Below are positions 21,261 through 64,000 of a stretch of 64,000 bases of DNA, one piece after another. Under the pieces are notes generated by a model. It worked only from the letters and a program-made list of their open reading frames with translations, was not told where the DNA came from and did no database searches. Source of the DNA: Mucilaginibacter gracilis. Its GTDB lineage: Bacteria > Bacteroidota > Bacteroidia > Sphingobacteriales > Sphingobacteriaceae. The stretch covers positions 496,001-560,000 of the forward strand of contig NZ_RBKU01000001.1 in assembly GCF_003633615.1 (NCBI RefSeq). The letters run 5' to 3'. A program made the translations under genes and the position numbers. Numbering within the stretch: the stretch's first letter is position 1; each line of letters begins with the position of its first letter.

Positions 21261-21422
21261 TTACCGGAGATTACTTTTTATTGGGCCAGACATAGCTTTG
21301 GGAATATTGCCAGAAATAAATGCCGAAAATGCCCACCCAACCCACAAAAGAACCAACGCTATTGCCGCAGCAATGGATTCCGTTAAGCTACACAAATATA
21401 TCAGGCTGACTGATCCAACCAT
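21261..21422 (-). CDS. Possible 53-aa single-pass membrane peptide
   Basis: A minus-strand frame opens at ATG 21422, inside the last codons of the LytTR regulator gene, and closes at 21261. It encodes one hydrophobic helix (ESIAAAIALVLLWVGWAFSAF) with a basic end (IKSNLR). The overlap with the upstream gene would suit coupled translation. No homologue recognised; may be chance. Confidence 0.22.
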   Translation of the reverse strand: MVGSVSLIYLCSLTESIAAAIALVLLWVGWAFSAFISGNIPKAMSGPIKSNLR

Positions 21423-22165
21423 TTTTTTAATTGTGCTGATTTTTCCCTACTGATCAGGATAGCCTCATCCAGGGCGGGTGTAAGTTCGATTTTTAACTGC
21501 CCGTTAAAAGATTGATGAATTTTATGGATAGCTTTTAAAGAAACAATGAATTGGCGGCTAACCCGAAAAAAAATCTCAGGGTCCATTTCCTTTTCCAGAA
21601 TTTCCAGTGTCTGATCGATCATCAACCGCTGTCCGTTATACATAATTAGAAAAGTGGCTTTATTTTCGGAAGTGAAATAAGCAATTTCACCGGCCATTAC
21701 CAGGATATACTTGTCCCGGTAGGCCACTAAGAAACGGTTGCGGTAGATGGCCTGCTTGGCCTGCATGCTTTTAACCAATTGTAGTATACTCTCATCCTTT
21801 CCGATACCTGCCATAGACTTCGCCTTACGAATACCTTTTGCCAGTTTATCGGCTTCCAAAGGCTTCAGCAGGTAATCTATACCGTTTACTTCAAAGGCCT
21901 TTAATGCATATTCATCGTAAGCTGTAATAAAAATCACCGGTGAGGTAATTTGTACATGATTAAATATCTCAAAGCTCAGCCCGTCCGTTAGCCGGATATC
22001 CATGAAAATGATATCCGGCTGCTCATTCGCTTTCAACCATTGGATACTGTCATGAACCGTTTGAAGATTTGCTATTACCGTAATGTCACGGTCTAAAACA
22101 TGAAGCATTTTCTTGAGCCTCTGTATGTTAGGCAACTCGTCTTCTATGATTAAAACATTTAACAT
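21401..22165 (-). CDS. LytTR-family response regulator
   Basis: 254 aa. Receiver domain 1-120 with phospho-acceptor Asp56 in IIFMDIRL and Lys in YLLKPLEA. LytTR DNA-binding domain from about 150: RFLVAYRDKYILV, the conserved FFRVSRQFIVSL turn and a terminal EKSAQLKKWL. Last gene of the efflux operon and 11 bp after its LytS-type kinase, so it most likely regulates this operon. LytTR proteins bind pairs of short direct repeats; none could be assigned with confidence upstream of 29958. Confidence 0.92.
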   Translation of the reverse strand: MLNVLIIEDELPNIQRLKKMLHVLDRDITVIANLQTVHDSIQWLKANEQPDIIFMDIRLTDGLSFEIFNHVQITSPVIFITAYDEYALKAFEVNGIDYLLKPLEADKLAKGIRKAKSMAGIGKDESILQLVKSMQAKQAIYRNRFLVAYRDKYILVMAGEIAYFTSENKATFLIMYNGQRLMIDQTLEILEKEMDPEIFFRVSRQFIVSLKAIHKIHQSFNGQLKIELTPALDEAILISREKSAQLKKWLDQSA

Positions 22166-22176
22166 CAGATTTTTTT

Positions 22177-23223
22177 TTAATTATTCAAATTAATTAACGG
22201 GATTTCTACCCTGAAAAAAAAGTCGGTATCGGTTATAACAGGCGCCGGGCTATTCAACAATCGGTATCTTTCCCTAATATTTTTAAGGCCCATATTCGCA
22301 CCTGGTTCATTGACGGCTTTAGGTGTTTTATTATTCTCCACAACCAGCAATTTTCCATCAGGGAAGTAAATGTGAATATTCAACGGCGAGTCCGTACTAA
22401 AAACATTATGTTTAATGGCATTTTCTATCAGTAATTGTAAGGTTAAAGGAGGCACACAGTACTGGACGATATGCTCACTCTCCTCAATCTGTACACAAAT
22501 ACCGTCCCCATACCGAATTTGGTATAAAAATAAATAAGCTTTGATAAACTCCAGTTCTTCTTTTAAAGCGATGACATTCTGAGTTCTATTGGCTAACATA
22601 TACCGGTAAATAGACGACAATTTAGCGACGTAAGAAATGGCAACCTGTGGCTGATCCTCTATTAACGCGGTTACGATACTAAGGTTATTGAACAGGAAAT
22701 GCGGATCAAGTTGCAGCTTTAGTGCATCAAGCTGAGCCTGCGTTGTTAGCTGTTCCATCTCCAGCGTCTTCAGTCTGGCATCATTCCATTGGTAAAAAAA
22801 ATACTCGGCTGCAAAAACAGCGGTGATAAGCAACGAAAAAATGATACCTACAATAACCGTTTGTCTGAACATCAGTTCGTCATAACCAAAATAATTAGGG
22901 AACTTAATTTCAAAAAACAAAACCAGCACCATGTAAATAACAATGATATGTATCCAAAACTGTAGGCAAAACCTGCTTTTGATGCGTCCGTCCCATGGAT
23001 ACCATTTATTAAGAAAGGCGGTAAGCTGTATACCCGTTTCAAAAAGGGCACCAGCATAAGCAACGCTAAACATAAATTCGAGTATAAAATCACCAAACGC
23101 ATAATATCGCCAACTGTTAAAAACACGGGTGGCGGGGTTGATAAGTACCAGGATAAGATATAATACCACGCCGAAGCCCGGATAGCCATATATTCTATAT
23201 AACCTATAGCTGTGTTTGTGCAT
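22177..23223 (-). CDS. LytS/YehU-type sensor histidine kinase
   Basis: 348 aa. Four hydrophobic helices in the first 145 residues, a short coiled coil, then the His_kinase domain with the phospho-accepting His175 in LQLDPHFLFNNL, followed by an HATPase_c region with IENAIKHN (N-box) and GLKNIRERYRLL (G-box). It has no obvious periplasmic domain, so it probably senses membrane state. Partner of the LytTR regulator just downstream. Confidence 0.9.
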   Translation of the reverse strand: MHKHSYRLYRIYGYPGFGVVLYLILVLINPATRVFNSWRYYAFGDFILEFMFSVAYAGALFETGIQLTAFLNKWYPWDGRIKSRFCLQFWIHIIVIYMVLVLFFEIKFPNYFGYDELMFRQTVIVGIIFSLLITAVFAAEYFFYQWNDARLKTLEMEQLTTQAQLDALKLQLDPHFLFNNLSIVTALIEDQPQVAISYVAKLSSIYRYMLANRTQNVIALKEELEFIKAYLFLYQIRYGDGICVQIEESEHIVQYCVPPLTLQLLIENAIKHNVFSTDSPLNIHIYFPDGKLLVVENNKTPKAVNEPGANMGLKNIRERYRLLNSPAPVITDTDFFFRVEIPLINLNN

Positions 23224-23259
23224 ATGCTAAAATAGGGAGAACTATACAAAATATCATCA

Positions 23260-23634
23260 TCAATTCATCCTCGTCCAGGTTTCATTAAAGCTCAGGAAGC
23301 CCCATTTAACTTTAAGATTCAATTCTGTACCATTTTCGCTGATCGTGAAACGGCCATGATAGGTTTTGTTATCTTTCGGGTCAATCACAATACCTTCAAA
23401 AATTTTGGCGTTTACTGGCTTCAGGTCTTTAGCAATAATTTTGTTGTTATCTTTTTTGTCTTTTTCAGTTTCCGTATTGATCTGTTTTGCCATAAACACC
23501 CGCCCTTCCTGATAAAATTCGATAATATCTTTATCCGGGGTTTTCCATTTACCTGCTATGGCTACCTGTTGAGCCCGGGAAATTAAGCCGAAAAATACGG
23601 AGAAGAGAATAGTTATAAAAACCTGTTTGTGCAT
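23260..23634 (-). CDS. DUF2147 domain exported protein
   Basis: 124 aa with a cleavable signal (MHKQVFITILFSVFFGLISRAQ). The body matches DUF2147: GKWKTPDKDIIEFYQEG, then KPVNAKIFEGIVID, YHGRFT and a final LKVKWGFLSFNETWTR, a small lipocalin-like barrel fold. Role unknown. Between the beta-barrel gene and the kinase gene in the efflux operon. Confidence 0.82.
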   Translation of the reverse strand: MHKQVFITILFSVFFGLISRAQQVAIAGKWKTPDKDIIEFYQEGRVFMAKQINTETEKDKKDNNKIIAKDLKPVNAKIFEGIVIDPKDNKTYHGRFTISENGTELNLKVKWGFLSFNETWTRMN

Positions 23635-23655
23635 GATGATAAATTTAAGGATGAA

Positions 23656-24282
23656 TTATAAAGGTGCTTTGATACCGATCATGGTGCTGATACCGCTCAA
23701 ATGCGTACTTGATTTATTGGGAAGTTGGGGAATAGTTGATGCCTGGCCTTCCAGGTAAAATATAAATGATTTGGATACCTTGAAATTGATACCGCCGCCA
23801 GCGTTGATATACAGATAAGTACCCGAAAAGGTTGTGTAATTCACGGTAATAGACGCATTAACAAACGACGTAGAAGGAACATCAATAAAGGATGCCCCAG
23901 CACCTGCCAGAACAAATGGCTGCCACCGGCCAAAGCTGTGCTGGTAACCGATATTTAAGCCCAGGTTAGTACTGTTTGCTTTAGCGTTAATCAGCGAGTT
24001 GATGGTGCCGAAATCGTTTTGAGATTGAAAATCTACTGTAGTTTGACCGAATTGAAATTTGATGAAATAGTTTTGGTGATAGTTGAGCTGTAGGGCGGTC
24101 ATTGCATTGGAGCCAAGCAGCGTGTTAGTGTTTTTGACCTGGTCATATGGAATAAAAATGCCGACAGACCCTCCGAAATCCAGGTACAATTTTCGGGCTG
24201 TAGGATCATCATTGCTTTGTGCGCGCACAGTAGATACTAATGTGCCGACAAACATCAGCGTAATACAGAATTTAATTTTCAT
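23656..24282 (-). CDS. Outer-membrane beta-barrel protein
   Basis: 208 aa from the ATG at 24282 (MKIKFCITLMFVGTLVSTVRAQ signal). The frame is open further upstream, but that text overlaps the RND/TolC gene in another frame and has no signal. Alternating hydrophobic/polar strands and glycine-rich turns (LNIGYQHSFGRWQPFVLAGAG, INAGGGINFKV in pieces) fit an 8-strand OMP_b-brl family protein. Probably co-transcribed with the pump; its role in the system is unknown. Confidence 0.78.
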   Translation of the reverse strand: MKIKFCITLMFVGTLVSTVRAQSNDDPTARKLYLDFGGSVGIFIPYDQVKNTNTLLGSNAMTALQLNYHQNYFIKFQFGQTTVDFQSQNDFGTINSLINAKANSTNLGLNIGYQHSFGRWQPFVLAGAGASFIDVPSTSFVNASITVNYTTFSGTYLYINAGGGINFKVSKSFIFYLEGQASTIPQLPNKSSTHLSGISTMIGIKAPL

Positions 24283-24349
24283 AAAGGAGATTAATTGATG
24301 CGGTATTATTACCGCCGATTGGTGAAATACAAGCTGGCCTAAAAAGATT

Positions 24350-27300
24350 TTAAAATATGTGCCCCGTTGCTTTGTAATAACCGGCAACTGCGGTGAGGTA
24401 TTCGAAAACGCTTTGGGTATAATCGTTATCTGCCTGAACCAGCTGCAATTCTGCATCGGCAACATCGGTGTATTTGGCGAAGCCCTTTTGCCACCTTGCC
24501 TCAATAAAGGCCAATGCCTGTTGCCTGGCAAACCTGATGTTTTGCTGGCCTTTTACTTTTTCGGTATTTTCGGCGATAGCCAGGCGATTATTGCGAACTT
24601 GCAGATTCGCCTGGTTCTCCATTAAACTGCGCTCGGCAATTACCTGTTCCAGTGCAAATTTGCTTTGTTTCACCCTGGCATCCGTGCGAAACCCAGTGAA
24701 GACGGGTATACTCAATTGAATACCCACATAAAAACTGTTGGGTACATTATAACTGCTGAAATCAAAATTATCCGATTGTGCCTGTAGAGAATACTGGCTC
24801 ACAAAAGCCAGTGAGGGCAAATATTTTGACTGCTCATTTTTAACCTGCTGGCGCGCGATTTGTGTTTTCCAGTCGTTGACCCGAAAATCTGGTCTTTTGG
24901 TACTAATTAATGCCGTGTCATTCACTACATTGGTTAACTTACCTAACAGTTCCGTACCCACGGTATCTGTAAGCTCGATCTCTTTATCCAGCGATAGATT
25001 TAAAAGAGATTTTAGGTAGTTGCCGGATTGCGCTACAGCTGTTCCCGCTTTACCATTGTTGATCTTCATCAGCTCCACATTACTCCAGGCATTAAGGGTG
25101 TCGCTTTTATTGGCATAGCCTTTACCGAATAACAGGCGGCTGTCTTTGAGATTGCGCTTTGACCGGTTTAAGGCGGCATTAGTCAACACCAGGTTCTGTC
25201 GGGCAATTAAAATATTGAAATAAGCCTTCCTGATCTCGTCTGCCAGTTCCCAGCAACTGAGCTCCAGGTTTGCATTATTAAGCCCCTCGTTCAAATGCGC
25301 GGTCTTCACATTTCCGCTAACCTCTTCATTAAAAAGCGGCATACTTACGTTAATATCTCCTGTAAAAGCATTTTTGGACGAAGAAGTTATCGGCTGGAGG
25401 TGTTTATCGTCATAGGTGATTTGCGAAGCAGCATTAACACCAAATGTTGGGAGAAAGAAAACCGATGGTTTAATGTTTCGGGTATAGTCTGCCGTGATCC
25501 CCACCTGCGGATACTGATAAGACTGTGCTTCTTTTAAACTATACTTTGCTTTCCAGGTCTCGATCTCTGCCAGTTTAATCTGCTGGTTGGCACTTAAACC
25601 CGTAGTAACTGCCTGTTTTAAGGAAAGCGTAATTTTTTCTTGTGCATAGGCGGTACTGGCACTATTTAAGCCGATTATTAAGCCAATTATAACCGGTGCC
25701 ACTATCCCTGTTACTTTTTTTACAGATACCTTAGCCCACAAATTCCCCAAGCCTGTTTTCAGCCTAACCAGCGTATTATAAACCACAGGCACAACCACCA
25801 GCGTCAAGAACATACTGCTGCTCAGCCCGCCAATCAGTACCCAGGCCAGGCCGCTGCTGAATGCCGAGGAAGCACCATTTGCAAGTGCCAATGGCAACAT
25901 ACCAATCACCATAGCCAATGTAGTCATCAATATCGGGCGGAGCCTGGCTTTACCGGCTCCAATCAGCGCTTCGTTTACATTAGCGGTTGTGCCTGTATCA
26001 TCTTTTAGAATATCATTTGTTTTATCAACCAGCAAGATCCCGTTTTTTACTACCAGGCCCATCATCATGATTAGTCCGAATATGGAAAATACATTCATGG
26101 ACCTGGCGGTAAGCGCCAAAGCCAGCAGAGCACCTGAAATAGCCAGCGGAATAGAAAAAAGGATCACGAAAGGGAACAGCCAGTTATTGTAAAGGGTAAC
26201 CATGATCAGGTAGATCAGGATGAAGGATACCAGCAGGGCCATACCCAGGTTGGTAAAGGAATCATCCTGTAATTCCAGGTCACCTTCATATAATACTTTG
26301 ATACCTTTACCCACCTGGAGTTTATCAATCTCTTTTTTGAGATCTTCACCCACATCCCCCACCGGCCTGCCCGAAACCTGGGCCAATAAAGTGATACTGG
26401 GTTGCTTATTCCGACGCTCAAGGTCCGAAGGACCCGATTGCGGAACAACTTTTGCAAACTGGCTTAAATACACCAACTGGTTATCTGCATTGATAAAGGT
26501 AAGCTTCGTTAACTGGTCTGTTTTATTACGGTCATTAACATCCAGCTGTATCCGGGTATTCGTTTCCTTGTCCTTGTCGCGAAATTTCAGCTGATCATTG
26601 CCATAAACTGCCATACGTAACGCATCGCCTACCGTTTCCGTGTTTAAGCCCAATCTGGCCATTTTATCACGATCTGCAACCAGCTTCAGTTCCGGTTTAC
26701 CTAAATCGGAAGATAATCTCGGGCTAACCAGTCCGCTTACGCTGCGGATAGCATTTAGGATAGCTGATGCCGCGGAATTCACACTATCGCGGTTGGTTCC
26801 GGTGATCAGCAATTGTACCGGTGCCTCGTTTGCGCCAAACAGGCCTATAGGTGAAACCCTGCTTTTAACACCGGCAACCTCCATAGATAATGCCTTCAGG
26901 TGCCGGGATAATTGGGACAGGCTTTTCTTCCGTTCCGTTAACGGCACAAGGGTCACATTAATCGTTGCAACGTTCGAACTGTACTTTTCATTAAAGCCAT
27001 CGTTCTGGTATCCTATATTAGAAAACACTTTGGTTACCTCCGGAATCGCTTTCAGCTTATTTTCAATAATGCGGACTGTTGAATCAGTTTCGGCCAGTTT
27101 GGTGCCGGGCTGCAGATCGACGAACAGGGATAGTTCGCCCTTATCTGCCGCGGGGAGAAATTCTGTACCAACAATATTGGAGGTAAGCAGTAATAAGGAG
27201 CTGCCAAAAACACCCATGGCTATGATACCTATCACAATTTTATGGTTCAGCCCCCAATTAAGCAGCTTGCCATATCCCTCGGTAAGCTCATGCATTCTGG

Positions 27301-28828
27301 CTTCAAACCAAATACTTGCCCTGCCAAAAATTGTTTTCGTGCTTAAATGTTCCAGTTTGGCAAATCGCGAAGCGATCATCGGTGTAAGCGTAAAGGAAAC
27401 TACCAGGCTCGACAGCGTAGATACAACGATAACCAGCGAAAACTCCTTAATTAAGCTGCCAACAAGGCCAGGCACCAGCGCCATTGGTAAAAACACCACC
27501 ACATCAACCAGCGTGATGGATAAAGCTGCAAAGCCAATTTCATTACGCCCATCGAGCGCGGCATCCCGTTTGGCCTTTCCTTTTTCCAGGTGGTGGTAGA
27601 TATTCTCCAACACTACGATTGAGTCGTCCACCAATACGCCTATTACCAGGCTCATCGCCAATAAAGTCATCAGGTTAAGGGAATAATCCAGCGCATACAT
27701 CATAATGAAAGCACTAAAAAGAGATGCCGGTATGGAAACCAGAATGATGAGCGAGTTGCGGATACTGTGTAAAAAAACCAGCATCACGAGTGCAACCAGC
27801 AGGATGGCGATACCCAGGTCATCATATACCTGGTGTGCGGCCTCCAGCGTAAACTCCGAACTGTCTTGAGCTACATTGAATTTGATCTTTTTACCGGCGT
27901 ATTCCAGCTCGATCTTGTTTAGCTCTTCCCGGACTACTTTTGTCACCTCCGCGGCATTGGCTCCGGATTGTTTATTGATAAACAGTGCTATGGACGACTG
28001 GCCGTTAAGACGGCTGCTGATTTCTTCATCCTTATGGCCGATCTGTACCGTAGCAACATCTCTCACACTCAGACTGCTGCCATCGGGATAGTTTTTGATT
28101 TTTAAATTACCTACCTGGTTGGTATCTGTGAGTTTGCCGCCCAGTTTAACGCCAAACTGCGCGTCGTTATCTTTGATCGTTCCAACAGGGTAGTCTGCGT
28201 TTGCCTTGCGGATCGTTTCATAAAGATCGGTTACGGATATGCCGTTGCTTATCAGTTTATCCTGTTTAGCCAGTACTTTAATCTCTTCGGGTGTACCACC
28301 AAGAATTTTCACCTTGCCAACACCCTTAATCTGGGCCAGCCTCGGTTTAAGCTGGTTATTAACCAGGTCATACAATTCGGTTGGCGTAACGGAGGCGGTT
28401 ACCGCCAACTTTAAAACCGGAAGATCATTTACATTAAATTTTTCCAGCACTGGTGCCCTAACACCTTCGGGAAAGTCCGCGAGGGTGCCGTTTACCGAAT
28501 GCTGTACTTCCTGCATAGCCAGGTCAGGGTCTGCATCGGCCATAAACTCAATAGAAACCACAGACAGATTATCTGCCGATAGTGAATTAACCTTTTTGCT
28601 TTTACTCACACCGGAGACTGCATCTTCAATTTTTTTGGTGACACTGTTTTCCACATCCTCCGGCGACGCGCCGGGGTATGCCGTAATAACCGTAATGGTT
28701 GGCGTAGCCAGGTTGGGCAATAGTTCATATTTTAAGTTCTGGTAGCTGATGACGCTCAATCCACCCAGGATCAGAAAGAATACGATAAATAAGATCGGCC
28801 TTTTAATAGCCAGTCCGGTAATACTCAT
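24350..28828 (-). CDS. RND efflux permease fused to a TolC-like outer-membrane factor
   Basis: One uninterrupted 1492-aa frame. Residues 1 to about 1030 are a full HAE1/MdtB-type RND transporter: N-terminal helix, porter domains, the central membrane block with proton-relay DDSIVVLENI, and the second half ending near VVPVVYNTLVRLK. At about 1040-1062 a hydrophobic segment ends in STAYAQ, like a signal-peptidase I site. Residues about 1063-1492 are a complete TolC-family protein (LSLKQAVTTGLSANQQ start, two OEP repeats, SIPVFTGFRTDARV). Expected role: drug, detergent or metabolite efflux with the adaptor encoded upstream. Either the chain is cut by signal peptidase or it spans both membranes. 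Substrate unknown. Confidence 0.92.
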   Translation of the reverse strand: MSITGLAIKRPILFIVFFLILGGLSVISYQNLKYELLPNLATPTITVITAYPGASPEDVENSVTKKIEDAVSGVSKSKKVNSLSADNLSVVSIEFMADADPDLAMQEVQHSVNGTLADFPEGVRAPVLEKFNVNDLPVLKLAVTASVTPTELYDLVNNQLKPRLAQIKGVGKVKILGGTPEEIKVLAKQDKLISNGISVTDLYETIRKANADYPVGTIKDNDAQFGVKLGGKLTDTNQVGNLKIKNYPDGSSLSVRDVATVQIGHKDEEISSRLNGQSSIALFINKQSGANAAEVTKVVREELNKIELEYAGKKIKFNVAQDSSEFTLEAAHQVYDDLGIAILLVALVMLVFLHSIRNSLIILVSIPASLFSAFIMMYALDYSLNLMTLLAMSLVIGVLVDDSIVVLENIYHHLEKGKAKRDAALDGRNEIGFAALSITLVDVVVFLPMALVPGLVGSLIKEFSLVIVVSTLSSLVVSFTLTPMIASRFAKLEHLSTKTIFGRASIWFEARMHELTEGYGKLLNWGLNHKIVIGIIAMGVFGSSLLLLTSNIVGTEFLPAADKGELSLFVDLQPGTKLAETDSTVRIIENKLKAIPEVTKVFSNIGYQNDGFNEKYSSNVATINVTLVPLTERKKSLSQLSRHLKALSMEVAGVKSRVSPIGLFGANEAPVQLLITGTNRDSVNSAASAILNAIRSVSGLVSPRLSSDLGKPELKLVADRDKMARLGLNTETVGDALRMAVYGNDQLKFRDKDKETNTRIQLDVNDRNKTDQLTKLTFINADNQLVYLSQFAKVVPQSGPSDLERRNKQPSITLLAQVSGRPVGDVGEDLKKEIDKLQVGKGIKVLYEGDLELQDDSFTNLGMALLVSFILIYLIMVTLYNNWLFPFVILFSIPLAISGALLALALTARSMNVFSIFGLIMMMGLVVKNGILLVDKTNDILKDDTGTTANVNEALIGAGKARLRPILMTTLAMVIGMLPLALANGASSAFSSGLAWVLIGGLSSSMFLTLVVVPVVYNTLVRLKTGLGNLWAKVSVKKVTGIVAPVIIGLIIGLNSASTAYAQEKITLSLKQAVTTGLSANQQIKLAEIETWKAKYSLKEAQSYQYPQVGITADYTRNIKPSVFFLPTFGVNAASQITYDDKHLQPITSSSKNAFTGDINVSMPLFNEEVSGNVKTAHLNEGLNNANLELSCWELADEIRKAYFNILIARQNLVLTNAALNRSKRNLKDSRLLFGKGYANKSDTLNAWSNVELMKINNGKAGTAVAQSGNYLKSLLNLSLDKEIELTDTVGTELLGKLTNVVNDTALISTKRPDFRVNDWKTQIARQQVKNEQSKYLPSLAFVSQYSLQAQSDNFDFSSYNVPNSFYVGIQLSIPVFTGFRTDARVKQSKFALEQVIAERSLMENQANLQVRNNRLAIAENTEKVKGQQNIRFARQQALAFIEARWQKGFAKYTDVADAELQLVQADNDYTQSVFEYLTAVAGYYKATGHIF

Positions 28829-28866
28829 AAAAATAAATTTGGAGTGATGAAAATTGATAAAACAGC

Positions 28867-29958
28867 TTAATTATTAACCGTAAGCCATTGCAACTTTTTG
28901 CCGGGCTCCACATTAAGCAACCCGGCTGTCATTATGGTATCTCCGGCTTTTAGTCCGCCTGATACACTCAGGTAAGTATCGTATTCTTTTCCGGTAACAA
29001 TAGGCGTGAGCACCGGGTACTGTGAATGGTGAATAAGATAGACGGCTGATTGTTTATGATCGGTAATTAAGGCGCTCCTGGGTATTACTAATGTGTTTAC
29101 CCGCTCATCTTCACCAAAGGCCACCGAAACATTCATGCCAGCTAAGAGCCTGTTGAGCTTGTTATTAACAATCCTGATCTCCACCGGAAAGGTTTTGGCG
29201 GCTGAGGCCACGGGGATAATGGCCGATATTTTACCGGTAAACATTGTGCTCGGGTAGGCATCTGCCCGGATAGTTACCGCGCTGCCCTTTTTCAGCCGGG
29301 CAACTTCAGTTTCCTGTACAAAAACATTAACCAGCACATCATTCAAACAGGCAATTGCCCCCAGTGTGGTACCGGGCGTAACATATTCACCCTGGTTAAT
29401 CTTCTTATCGATAATCGTTCCGCTCTCCGGGGCCAGTATCAAGGTCTGGCCAACCTGCTTTTTACTAATATTGAGCTGAGAAGCGGCATTCTGCATTTGC
29501 AGCCTGGCGTTCTCCACCTCGGCTCCCGAAGCATTTCCTGAATCCTGAAGTTCCTTCAGTTTTACGTAATCACTTTTTGCCTTGTTATAGGTATCCTCAC
29601 TTATCTGATAGGATGAAAAGCGTGTTGATTTATCCACCTTAACTAAAATGGAGCTTTTAGCCACGGTATTCCCTTTTTCAATCGCCGAGTAAACAACTCT
29701 ACCATCAGTTTCCGCAGTTAGCGTAACAATTTTCCCCGCTTCCACAGCCCCCCTATAGGTAAAGCTGCCGGAGAAATTCATTGCTTTAACTAAAGTTGCC
29801 TGGGCTGCATAGCTAACCGGCTTTTGCTCCTGTTTGATCTCATTTTGAACAGCTTTTTGATTGCTTTTTAGTTTATACACTATAGCAACAATAACCAGGG
29901 CGGCTATGCCTGCGAAGATCATTTTTGGATAATATTGTTTTATTGATTTCTGGTACAT
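28867..29958 (-). CDS. RND efflux periplasmic adaptor subunit
   Basis: 363 aa membrane-fusion protein. One N-terminal membrane helix (about 13-26), then the barrel-sandwich/lipoyl halves GRVVYSAIEKGNTVAKSSILVKVD and LAPESGTIIDKKINQGEYVTPG, separated by an alpha-hairpin (about 115-165), and a C-terminal beta-barrel and membrane-proximal domain. First gene of the six-gene minus-strand operon; stop codon 38 bp before the pump start. Bridges pump and outer-membrane factor. Confidence 0.92.
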   Translation of the reverse strand: MYQKSIKQYYPKMIFAGIAALVIVAIVYKLKSNQKAVQNEIKQEQKPVSYAAQATLVKAMNFSGSFTYRGAVEAGKIVTLTAETDGRVVYSAIEKGNTVAKSSILVKVDKSTRFSSYQISEDTYNKAKSDYVKLKELQDSGNASGAEVENARLQMQNAASQLNISKKQVGQTLILAPESGTIIDKKINQGEYVTPGTTLGAIACLNDVLVNVFVQETEVARLKKGSAVTIRADAYPSTMFTGKISAIIPVASAAKTFPVEIRIVNNKLNRLLAGMNVSVAFGEDERVNTLVIPRSALITDHKQSAVYLIHHSQYPVLTPIVTGKEYDTYLSVSGGLKAGDTIMTAGLLNVEPGKKLQWLTVNN

Positions 29959-56363: not shown

Positions 56364-59300
56364 TTAGTGGGCAGATGCTGTTTCACTATTTGACTCTTTG
56401 GGATGACCACTTCCGCTAAATTTTTCCTGTAATGTTTGGAACAGGATATACAATATTGGAATAACAAATACGCCGAAAACAGTGCCAACCAGCATGCCGC
56501 CTACGGCGCCAGTACCAATCGATCTGTTACCTGCTGCCCCAACTCCCGAAGAGAACATGAGCGGCATCAGGCCGAAGATGAAAGCCAGCGAGGTCATTAA
56601 TATGGGGCGCAAACGGGCAGTGGCCGCTTCAACAGCCGCTTGTACAATGGGCATTCCCTTTTTGCGCCGTGCTACTGCATACTGTATAATCAGGATCGCA
56701 TTTTTAGCCAATAAGCCGATGAGCATGACCACTGATATTTGCATATAAATATTGTTATCGAGCCCCATTAACTTGGCAAACAAGTAAACGCCGGCCAAAC
56801 CCACAGGTAGCGAGCAGAGTACCGCAAGCGGTATGATATAACTTTCGTACAGCGCGCTCAGTAAAAAGAAAACGAATACGATACACAGCACATAAATGAA
56901 TATCGTTTTACTGCCCGAACTAACTTCTTCCCGTGATAAACCGGAATAATCAAAGGTGTAACCGGCAGGTAAAGTTTTTGCAGCAACCTCCTGTACAGCC
57001 TTCAATGCATCGCCGCTGCTGAAACCGGGCTTGGGCGAGCCTATCACCGATATGTTGTTGAATAAATTGAATCGTGATAAACTTTGCGGCCCGTTTATTG
57101 GCTTAAGGGTAACAAACTCTGATACTGGCGCCATAGTTCCCGCAGAATTTTTAACATAAATATTATCCAGGCTCAGCGCATTCTTACGGTATTGGTAATC
57201 AGCCTGCACCATCACACGGTATTGCTTACCAAACTGGTTAAAGGTGGATGCATATACGCCGCCATAGTAACCCTGCATCGTACTGGTGATATCGCTGATT
57301 AATACGCCCGCCTGTTTGGCCCTGGGCACATTAACGGACATGAGGAATTGTGGATAATTGGGATTAAATCCGGTGGCACCATATAAAATCTCCGGACGTT
57401 GGTTCAGCGCTCCTAAGAAACCGCCGGCAACTTTATAAAAATCGGCTATACTGCCGCCTGTTTTATCTTGTAATTCAATGGTAAAACCGCTTGAATTACC
57501 AAATCCTGGTACGGTTGGCGGGGCAAAAAACAATATCTTGGCGCCTTTAATAGCGGCAGTCATACCAAAAAGCTGCCCTATAACATCGTCAGCTTTTACA
57601 CCTTTCCTTTCATCCCATGTCTTTAGTTTAATGATACCAAGTGCAAAGTTGCTGCCTGCACCGTTAATGATACTTTGCCCGGTAACCATTCCCCTGTTTT
57701 CTATGCTGGGTATGCTTGCGGCAAGCTTATCAACCATCTCTGTTACTGCTATTGTTTTTTCGAGCGAAGTACCTGGTGGAAGGCTAATATCGGCAAATAT
57801 GGTACCCTGATCCTCGTTAGGAACAAATCCTCCGGGTGTGGTTTTCATGCAAAATACCAGCAAGGCGGTAAAACCAAGTACCATAACAGGTACAATCCAG
57901 CGTTTGCGGTTTAAAATTCCTATGGAATTTTGGTACTTATTTTTTAGGGTATCAAACGCGGTGTTAAAGCTGGTGTAAAACCGTTTTAAAAGACTTTTTT
58001 GGGTTGTTTCATGCTCATCATGTGGTTTCAGGAACAATGCGCACAGCGCAGGGCTGAGTGTTAAAGCATTAATGGCAGATATCACAATTGCTGATGCCAG
58101 TGTTAACCCAAACTGTTTGAAAAACACACCGGAGCTGCCGCTGATAAACGAAACCGGGATAAATACCGCAGCCATAACCAGGGTAATCGCTACAATAGTT
58201 CCACCTAACTCGCTCATAGAATCAATGGCTGCGTCATGTGCCGATTTGTATCCTTCATCAAGTTTGGCATGGACGGCCTCAACAACCACAATCGCATCAT
58301 CTACCACAATACCTATAGCCAGCACCAAAGCAAACAGGGTAAGCAGATTTATAGAAAAACCGAATAAGCTAAGGCAGGCAAATGTACCAACGATAGAAAC
58401 CAGTACAGAAATGCCCGGGATAAGTGTTGACCTGAAATCCTGAAGGAATATAAATACAACAATAAATACCAGTATGTAAGCCTCAACCAGGGTTTCTACA
58501 ACCTTGTCGATGGAAGCACTTAAGAAATCATTAGCATTATACAGCGAAACATAACTTACGCCTTTTGGAAAAGATGGTGCATCCTTATCAAGTGTGGCTA
58601 TGGCCTGCTTAATAATGGTTTGGGCATTTGATCCCGATACCTGGCTGACTGCAATAACCACGGAAGGTTCATTGTCCGTACTTAAGGTTGATGAGTAATT
58701 TAACGAACCCAGTTCAATGCGGGCAATATCACGCAGGCGTAATACCGAACCGTCGGCATTGGAGCGCATCACCATATTACCGAATTGAGTAGTATCAAGC
58801 AGTTTCCCGGTGTACTGAATACTGTATTGAAAAACCTGGTTACTATTTTCGCCAAACTTTCCTGGTGCTGCATCAATGTTCTGTTCGGCAAGTGCGTTGT
58901 TAACATCGGTTGGTGTTAGCCCATAGCTGGACATTACCTCGGGTTTAAGCCATATGCGCATGGCATAATCTTTACTGCCAAAAGCAGATGCGCTGCCAAC
59001 GCCGTCAATCCTTTTAATTTCGGGGATAATGTTGATGTTGGCATAGTTGTTCAAAAAGGTTTGATCGTATGCCGGGTTACTACTTTTTAGCGCGAAAAAC
59101 AGCAGGTTACTGCTTTGTTGTTTCTGTACGGTTACACCGGCCTTAGTTACTTCGGCCGGCAACACGCTGCTGGCAATAGATACTCTGTTTTGAACATTTA
59201 CGGCGTTAATATCGGGGTTGGTGCCTAATTTAAAATAGATGGTAATGGTGGCGCTGCCATCATTAGTTGCAGTTGAGGTCATGTAAGTCATTCCTTCAAC

Positions 59301-59513
59301 ACCATTAATCTGTTCTTCCAGCGGTACAATTACGTTACGTTGAATAACGCTGGCCCCTGCACCTGTATAAGTTGCAGTTACCTGTACGGTAGGAGGCGCT
59401 ATCTCGGGGTATTGTGATACCGGCAGACCGAGGTAGGCCAATACGCCAAGTATCACGAGCATGACTGATATTACAGTTGATAATACCGGTCTTTCGATGA
59501 ATATTTTAAGCAT
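56364..59513 (-). CDS. HAE1-family RND multidrug efflux permease (AcrB-like)
   Basis: 1049 aa, the AcrB length. N-terminal FIERPVLSTVISVMLVILG, two porter/docking regions, proton-relay Asp pair in GIVVDDAIVVVEAVH, FIPVSFISGSSGVFFKQFG and the C-terminal helices with MTSLAFIFGLMPLM and GMLVGTVFGVFVIPILY. Takes hydrophobic or amphiphilic drugs from the periplasm and outer leaflet. Complete with adaptor and channel in the same operon. Confidence 0.95.
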   Translation of the reverse strand: MLKIFIERPVLSTVISVMLVILGVLAYLGLPVSQYPEIAPPTVQVTATYTGAGASVIQRNVIVPLEEQINGVEGMTYMTSTATNDGSATITIYFKLGTNPDINAVNVQNRVSIASSVLPAEVTKAGVTVQKQQSSNLLFFALKSSNPAYDQTFLNNYANINIIPEIKRIDGVGSASAFGSKDYAMRIWLKPEVMSSYGLTPTDVNNALAEQNIDAAPGKFGENSNQVFQYSIQYTGKLLDTTQFGNMVMRSNADGSVLRLRDIARIELGSLNYSSTLSTDNEPSVVIAVSQVSGSNAQTIIKQAIATLDKDAPSFPKGVSYVSLYNANDFLSASIDKVVETLVEAYILVFIVVFIFLQDFRSTLIPGISVLVSIVGTFACLSLFGFSINLLTLFALVLAIGIVVDDAIVVVEAVHAKLDEGYKSAHDAAIDSMSELGGTIVAITLVMAAVFIPVSFISGSSGVFFKQFGLTLASAIVISAINALTLSPALCALFLKPHDEHETTQKSLLKRFYTSFNTAFDTLKNKYQNSIGILNRKRWIVPVMVLGFTALLVFCMKTTPGGFVPNEDQGTIFADISLPPGTSLEKTIAVTEMVDKLAASIPSIENRGMVTGQSIINGAGSNFALGIIKLKTWDERKGVKADDVIGQLFGMTAAIKGAKILFFAPPTVPGFGNSSGFTIELQDKTGGSIADFYKVAGGFLGALNQRPEILYGATGFNPNYPQFLMSVNVPRAKQAGVLISDITSTMQGYYGGVYASTFNQFGKQYRVMVQADYQYRKNALSLDNIYVKNSAGTMAPVSEFVTLKPINGPQSLSRFNLFNNISVIGSPKPGFSSGDALKAVQEVAAKTLPAGYTFDYSGLSREEVSSGSKTIFIYVLCIVFVFFLLSALYESYIIPLAVLCSLPVGLAGVYLFAKLMGLDNNIYMQISVVMLIGLLAKNAILIIQYAVARRKKGMPIVQAAVEAATARLRPILMTSLAFIFGLMPLMFSSGVGAAGNRSIGTGAVGGMLVGTVFGVFVIPILYILFQTLQEKFSGSGHPKESNSETASAH

Positions 59514-62437: not shown

Positions 62438-64000
62438 TTAATGACTGCTGTTAGAAACAGTTGTTGGTTGCAATTTCTCCTGTTTTTCAGGGAGCCATAT
62501 CCCGATTTTTTCACGCAGACGGTCTACACTGTAATAAACCATTGGCACTACAAAAACCGTTAAACAAAGGCTGGATGACAGGCCGCCAATAATTACCCAT
62601 GCCAAACCATTTTTCCATTCACTGCCAGGAGCTGTCGATATAGCGATAGGTATCATCCCGATAACCATTGCTGCTGTCGTCATTAAGATGGGCCGGAGCC
62701 TCTCTTTTCCTGCCTCAATAAGTGCTTGCCATGTAGTATCTCCATGTTCTTTACGGTGATTGGCAAAGTCCACGATAAGTATCGCATTCTTAGCCACCAA
62801 GCCGAGCAGCATGATCATGCCTAAAATGGTAAAAATACTCATGGAAGATTTAGTTAATGCCAAGGCTAAAAACACGCCGATGAAAGCCACCGGGAGAGAG
62901 AATAGCACGACGAACGGATAAACAAAATTATCATATAATGCCACCATCACCAGGTACATCAATATAACCGCGGCTAATATAGCTATACCCATTGCACCGA
63001 ATGAATCGCCCTGCCGTTCCACATCACCACTCCAGCGAATGTCTATACCGGGCGGTAAAGGTTTCTCTACTAATGATTGTTTGATCTGATCGGCAATCAC
63101 GCCGGAAGTAATACCTAAAACATCGCTTTTTATAGTAACAGAAGTACGCCGGTCCTTTCTTTCCAAAACGCTTGGACCGCTCCCCTGCACTATATCGGCA
63201 AATTGTGATAGTTTAATTAATTTGCCGGAAGAACTGTTAAAGGTCATCGCTTTTACATCCTCCACGCTATGCTTATCAAAGTCGTCAAACTTCACTTTAA
63301 TATCATATTCGTTCGTACCCACCCGATATTTGGCATCATCATTACCGGCAAAGGCATTTTGTAGTACCGCGCCAACCATATTAATATTCAAGCCCAGTTG
63401 ACTCATCTTTTCACGATCAATATTTACCGCTACTTCCGGGTTGCCATCTTCCACACTTAATGCTACGTTAATAGCGCCAGGCATGGCTTTTATACGCTGT
63501 TTTAACTCATTGGCGGCTGCCATTAATTGGGAGGTATTTTCTCCATTCAATACCAGTTGTATCGGTTCGCCGCTATTAACCATACTGACCATTGTAGGGC
63601 TGATCTTTACACCTGCGAAATGCTGCGCAATATCAAGGGTTTTCTTCAGCATTATTTTTTCTGTAGGAAGCTTACGTTCTTGTTTATCAACCAGTGTTAC
63701 CGTCAATTCCGATTTATAATCAGAACCAACCCCAGCTACCAGTGACGATGTACTTGATCCGGCCACATTGCTTGCAACATCTACAACATCGGCTTGTTTA
63801 CGCAGATAGCTCTCTATGGCATTGCTGCGCAAATTATTTTGTTTTACTGTCGTATTCTTATCAAACTCTAATGCCAGCCTGAACTGGCCTTTATCGGTAG
63901 GAGCTATAAATTCACTACCTATAACGCCCAATTTCATGACCCAGACCACTACTGCAAACAGGCATATCACGATACCGCTCATCGCCAGTTTGTGGCTTAA
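62438..64000 (-). CDS. RND efflux permease, C-terminal half (5' end off window)
   Basis: The frame stays open to the right edge (upstream codons read LSHKLA before MSGIVI), so only the last 520 residues are present. Second-half RND features: FIAPTDKGQFRLALEFD, the porter region, ERQGDSFGAMGIAILAAVILMYLVMVALYDNF in parts, KNAILIVDFANHRKEHG and RLRPILMTTAAMVIGMIPIA. HAE1/CusA-like, a relative of the fused pump at 24350 (same wording around RPILMTT and SSSL.LTVFVVPMVYY) but without a TolC extension: it stops 23 residues after the last helix. Confidence 0.92.
   Translation of the reverse strand, partial: LSHKLAMSGIVICLFAVVVWVMKLGVIGSEFIAPTDKGQFRLALEFDKNTTVKQNNLRSNAIESYLRKQADVVDVASNVAGSSTSSLVAGVGSDYKSELTVTLVDKQERKLPTEKIMLKKTLDIAQHFAGVKISPTMVSMVNSGEPIQLVLNGENTSQLMAAANELKQRIKAMPGAINVALSVEDGNPEVAVNIDREKMSQLGLNINMVGAVLQNAFAGNDDAKYRVGTNEYDIKVKFDDFDKHSVEDVKAMTFNSSSGKLIKLSQFADIVQGSGPSVLERKDRRTSVTIKSDVLGITSGVIADQIKQSLVEKPLPPGIDIRWSGDVERQGDSFGAMGIAILAAVILMYLVMVALYDNFVYPFVVLFSLPVAFIGVFLALALTKSSMSIFTILGMIMLLGLVAKNAILIVDFANHRKEHGDTTWQALIEAGKERLRPILMTTAAMVIGMIPIAISTAPGSEWKNGLAWVIIGGLSSSLCLTVFVVPMVYYSVDRLREKIGIWLPEKQEKLQPTTVSNSSH

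Follow-up and report, generated by a model that had tools for sequence, protein, structure and literature searches.

A single-chain RND permease and TolC-type channel in Mucilaginibacter gracilis as a very likely polyprotein precursor of a tripartite efflux pump

The window, i.e. the whole 64,000-nucleotide stretch of DNA analysed here from the soil bacterium Mucilaginibacter gracilis, contains on its minus strand a six-gene cluster (21401-29958) that encodes a periplasmic adaptor, a fusion of an RND permease to an outer membrane factor (OMF), a small secreted protein, a DUF2147 protein, a LytS-type kinase and a LytTR regulator. The cluster and the parts of the fusion gene are the following:

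28867..29958, minus strand: periplasmic adaptor (RND_mfp), 363 aa, separated by 38 bases from the start of the fusion downstream and syntenic in orthologs
24350..28828, minus strand: RND::OMF fusion gene, 1492 aa (P0001), identified by ORF, Pfam, NCBIfam and orthologs
25769..28828, minus strand: RND permease half, residues 1-1020, HAE-1-like, identified by Pfam ACR_tran and alignment to PDB 8gjj
25643..25756, minus strand: predicted internal signal peptide, about residues 1025-1062, with a Lys-containing n-region, an h-region at 1039-1057 and the c-region STAYA
25643/25642, minus strand: predicted signal peptidase I (SPI) cut between the last base of A1062 (25643) and the first base of Q1063 (25642), placed by sequence comparison
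24353..25642, minus strand: predicted mature OMF (TolC/OprM/CusC fold), residues 1063-1492, with a predicted N-terminal (pyro)Gln, identified by Pfam, NCBIfam, AlphaFold2 and Foldseek
23656..24282, minus strand: small secreted protein, 208 aa, possibly a beta-barrel, a conserved downstream neighbour in orthologs, with no Pfam match
23260..23634, minus strand: DUF2147 protein, 124 aa, conserved neighbour
22177..23223, minus strand: LytS-type sensor histidine kinase (PF06580), adjoining the fusion even in distant families
21401..22165, minus strand: LytTR response regulator, partner of the kinase, conserved neighbour

The six-gene order is retained in the orthologs examined (L242, L243, L244, L251 and L252), and the kinase and regulator also adjoin distant fusions in L232, L234 and L250 and an unfused permease in L249; at L233 the stretch examined shows the kinase alone, and at L235 both genes are encoded on the opposite strand. 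Based on this synteny, we suggest that the LytS/LytTR two-component pair probably regulates the pump unit. The window contains two further RND permease genes, likewise on the minus strand, towards its right end (about 56436-59504 and 62489-64000).

The fusion gene is a single unbroken frame of 1492 codons that starts with ATG and runs from 28828 to 24350 in the ORF scan; a reading of the same stretch on the plus strand was rejected because it has stops throughout. The encoded chain comprises a complete HAE-1-like RND permease, a 13th hydrophobic segment ending STAYA/Q (the slash marks the predicted cut here and below) and a complete OMF with a TolC fold. ACR_tran (PF00873) covers residues 4-1018 (E 2e-248, 827 bits), the RND half aligns to the solved pump 8gjj with 389 bits, and the proton-relay Asp pair of TM4 and the Lys of TM10 are present, with VDD and VVKNG aligning to the 8gjj positions. 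The model for heavy-metal RND proteins of the CusA/CzcA type (TIGR00914) scores 411.6 bits against a cut-off of 701.45; the nearest NCBIfam models are those of multidrug permeases, yet the RND half stays under every NCBIfam permease cut-off. For the second half, the OEP match (PF02321) reaches residue 1489 (E 2.1e-42, 145 bits), the TolC models of NCBIfam span residues 1068-1491, and sequence matches to OprM, CusC, MtrE and TolC are weak but consistent. An AlphaFold2 model of this half (mean pLDDT 84.5) aligns in Foldseek over its full length with TolC (1ek9; E 5.8e-20, TM 0.78, 437 columns). The preliminary description of this locus as an RND pump and a TolC factor in one continuous 1492-aa chain is therefore borne out by the single ORF and by the Pfam and NCBIfam matches to both halves, with the strand, which that description did not give, being minus.

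Among 150 genomes searched within the genus, six more carry the fusion at 72-88% identity, each with a continuous frame, and a MAG belonging to a different collection contributes an additional ortholog. A sequencing or assembly error that merged two adjacent genes, which the preliminary description had kept in mind, has next to no probability: neighbouring RND and tolC genes in the same frame and split by a stop do exist, one pair (L236) even in this genome, but the frame is continuous in eight orthologs, each with a genome or bin of its own, as well as in about 100 fusions overall, and the occurrence of the same fusion in seven related genomes or bins rules such an error out.

Between the two halves, a positively charged linker leads into a hydrophobic stretch of 19 residues and then STAYA/Q. 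The junction reads RLKTGLGNLWAKVSVKK-VTGIVAPVIIGLIIGLNSA-STAYA/QEKITLSLKQAV, the putative cut falling between A1062 and Q1063, and the hydrophobic junction ending STAYAQ had thus been placed correctly at about residues 1040-1062. In Bacteroidota, most SPI substrates start with Gln once cleaved, and this residue is cyclised to pyroglutamate, the so-called Q-rule (PMC5837995). The P0001 junction has the sequence characteristics of such substrates, i.e. a positive n-region, a hydrophobic h-region, small residues at -3 and -1 and Gln at +1, and the same genome encodes S26 signal peptidase I genes and Glu_cyclase_2, a homologue of glutaminyl cyclase. Processing as a lipoprotein (SPII, as in OprM or CusC) was rejected, as a conserved lipobox Cys is lacking and +1 is Gln in all eight orthologs.

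In the alignment of the eight orthologs (P0001, the six genus genomes and the MAG), 64% of the columns are invariant in the RND half and 51% in the OMF half as opposed to a single one of the 39 columns that span the linker and h-region, and Ala at -3, Ala at -1 and Gln at +1 are invariant in 8/8 while the flanking residues vary. Given that the triplet is invariant beside a stretch with so few invariant columns, its conservation, as judged from this alignment, exceeds chance, and an invariant -3/-1/+1 triplet beside a variable stretch is the signature expected of an SPI site under selection. By contrast, when scored with a rigid position matrix derived from 19 free signal peptides, the P0001 junction comes 2nd of 1484 positions, behind the end of TM1, and the junction is first in 29 of 85 fusions only. 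This weak ranking is probably due to the varying length of the h-region; because of it, local sequence alone does not prove recognition.

Similar fusions exist in other Bacteroidota, as the preliminary description had stated, and they are common in the phylum. With the CzcA-type fusion of the same genome (L013) as query, full-length matches were obtained in about 69 of 198 sampled Bacteroidota genomes, and P0001 as query in a sample of 395 genomes identified the distant HAE-1-like fusions L134, L135, L136, L138, L139 and L220. The CzcA/CusA-type fusions belong to a different RND subfamily than the HAE-1-like P0001 but have an identical RND::TolC architecture and a [small]xA/Q junction; they are annotated as 'CusA/CzcA family heavy metal efflux RND transporter', e.g. 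on Hymenobacter and Pontibacter plasmids. In the open-licence literature, we found no paper on RND-TolC fusions or their processing and none discussing the junction of the CzcA/CusA-type fusions or its processing, and the accessible part of a Chem. Rev. survey of tripartite pumps makes no mention of such fusions.

In total, 102 fusions were reduced to 85 non-redundant sequences, 79 of which could be parsed by locating the extra hydrophobic segment by hydrophobicity alone and then scoring its C-terminal flank. In 75/79 of these, [small]x[AGS]/Q directly follows the extra segment, as compared to 16/837 for the other hydrophobic segments of the same pumps (Fisher p 1e-88, uncorrected for relatedness; the sequences share ancestry and are not independent events). 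Per-position counts at the junction were placed via the Gln in all but three sequences, so that their +1 figure is biased and the figure of 75/79 is the unbiased one. The four departures are YG/K (L129), AEA/C (L165), ALT/Q (L189) and AHA/D (L193), and by eye the six unparsed junctions read KAQ, QAQ, PAQ, QSQ, HAQ and QAQ. Of the free OMFs in the genus, all 25 scored with a similar rule have the site. Within the fused HAE-1-like clade, TM12 and the extra segment lie between about 21 and 117 residues apart, and the site is retained.

A different source of a separate channel would be an internal start codon in the linker, used for some or most of the synthesis of the OMF half. In L001, TTG/GTG codons lie in frame at -36, -33 and -20, counted from the cut, and Met followed by Lys, Arg or Asn occurs in 14/76 CzcA-type fusions as compared to 7% of random windows. 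However, any Met in the stretch is found in 34/76 of these fusions, about equal to the background of 41%, a start codon is conserved nowhere, L138 has none in the scanned stretch and several orthologs have TTG only. As the open frame is moreover maintained across the phylum, we consider this explanation very improbable.

The OMF half could also stay attached, with the chain uncut and the 13th segment, which is hydrophobic enough to span the membrane, serving as a permanent anchor, so that the OMF domain would remain tethered to the pump in the inner membrane. A permanent anchor would have no need for the conserved Ala-x-Ala/Gln. The geometry of the complex is likewise unfavourable: the periplasmic head of RND pumps measures about 70 A, and in the AlphaFold2 model the first helix of the mature OMF starts at mature residue 8, 7 residues past the cut. 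In solved OMFs, this helix (H1) is part of the equatorial belt, half-way up the periplasmic barrel of ~100 A (PMC8277102), and thus belongs mid-barrel above the RND head. A tether of 7 residues, about 25 A at most, would be too short to lead from the inner membrane past the head to the belt, and an uncut product could therefore not form the usual pump. We accordingly regard a permanent anchor as a highly unlikely arrangement.

The history of the fusions was addressed in separate trees for the two RND subfamilies in which they are present. In the tree of HAE-1-like RND halves, which was built quickly and has long branches, the 13 fused sequences group together with one unfused sequence (L137) inside, a pattern that would be explained by one gain and one loss or by two gains. 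L137/L249, the unfused RND within this clade, has retained the kinase/regulator pair, and the large ORFs in the surrounding 12 kb include no obvious tolC-like frame. The tree of the CzcA type (76 fused and 9 unfused sequences) requires five or more transitions between the fused and the unfused state. Four unfused groups (L222; L224/L225; L226/L227; L228) are nested among fused relatives and have an OMF-sized frame directly downstream, and from these positions in the tree it follows that splitting or joining, with the direction either way, has occurred repeatedly. Because the RND subfamilies differ and the CzcA-type OMF halves share 14-19% identity with that of P0001, the HAE-1-like and CzcA-type fusions appear to have arisen separately.

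The same genome contains two loci related to these events. At C1:1018000-1026500 (L236), the stop of an RND gene and the in-frame start of a downstream tolC are about 21 bases apart, and the signal peptide of this tolC is MKPFLFSIIFLFTLHAASA/Q; this near-fusion illustrates how little a fusion step would require. At C1:1297500-1304500 (L014/L239), a second copy of the CzcA-TolC type, 91% identical to L013 over residues 1-954, is interrupted by an in-frame TGA and is apparently a broken fusion gene.

Combining the junction data with the comparative data, we suggest that the fusion is very likely a polyprotein precursor of a tripartite efflux pump that is cut by SPI after AYA, although cleavage may be partial. 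The polyprotein reading put forward in the preliminary description is thus favoured by a cut site that is kept in the clade as well as in distant fusions and by the full TolC fold downstream of it. In this model, (i) the RND half would insert in the inner membrane and leave its C-terminus on the cytoplasmic side, as is typical of the family, (ii) the positively charged linker and the hydrophobic segment would act as an internal Sec signal peptide for export of the TolC half, (iii) SPI would cut after AYA and free the TolC half, the step for which the comparative support is strong, (iv) the freed N-terminal Gln would be cyclised by glutaminyl cyclase as in other secreted proteins of Bacteroidota, and (v) the OMF trimer in the outer membrane would meet the RND trimer via the separately encoded adaptor, again as known for the family. 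Both halves would come from one translation event, giving equal amounts of pump and channel, and this 1:1 synthesis may be the benefit that was selected. A covalent linkage between pump and channel is not needed, given that the nested CzcA relatives have separate adjacent genes.

The locus resembles AcrAB-TolC, MexAB-OprM, CmeABC and MdtABC in having a complete RND protein and a complete OMF with the adaptor gene directly upstream, but in those systems the pump and channel genes are separate, whereas here one chain contains an internal cut site. A precedent for the proposed processing is the FbcH cytochrome b/c1 precursor of Bradyrhizobium japonicum, in which a polytopic inner-membrane protein is followed by an internal signal peptide that releases the second subunit. 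P0001 is predicted from sequence to share this layout, with two subunits and an internal signal, and separate halves occur naturally in the nested unfused CzcA relatives. While the FbcH product stays at the inner membrane, the OMF of P0001 is predicted to reach the outer membrane, and its site follows the Q-rule of Bacteroidota. With the known Q-rule substrates (PMC5837995, PMC10653852) P0001 shares the AxA/Q site and the expected pyroglutamate, but the signal peptides of those substrates are N-terminal and the site in P0001 is internal, after a 12-TM protein.

Beyond this locus, we consider it likely that the fusions are phylum-wide polyproteins of Bacteroidota, in at least two RND subfamilies, from which SPI and glutaminyl cyclase yield a pump together with its own channel, thereby fixing their ratio and possibly their pairing. 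The occurrence of pyroglutamate at inner-membrane proteins was left untested in the Q-rule paper (PMC5837995), and the fusion provides a clean test case for whether SPI and glutaminyl cyclase process internal signals that follow polytopic membrane proteins. Should the cut occur, many entries of about 1450 aa that are annotated as 'CusA/CzcA family RND transporter' would represent two mature proteins, which would affect topology prediction, proteomics and structural work, and bacteria would have in such fusions a common and overlooked means of fixing the proportion in which two envelope components residing in different membranes are made.
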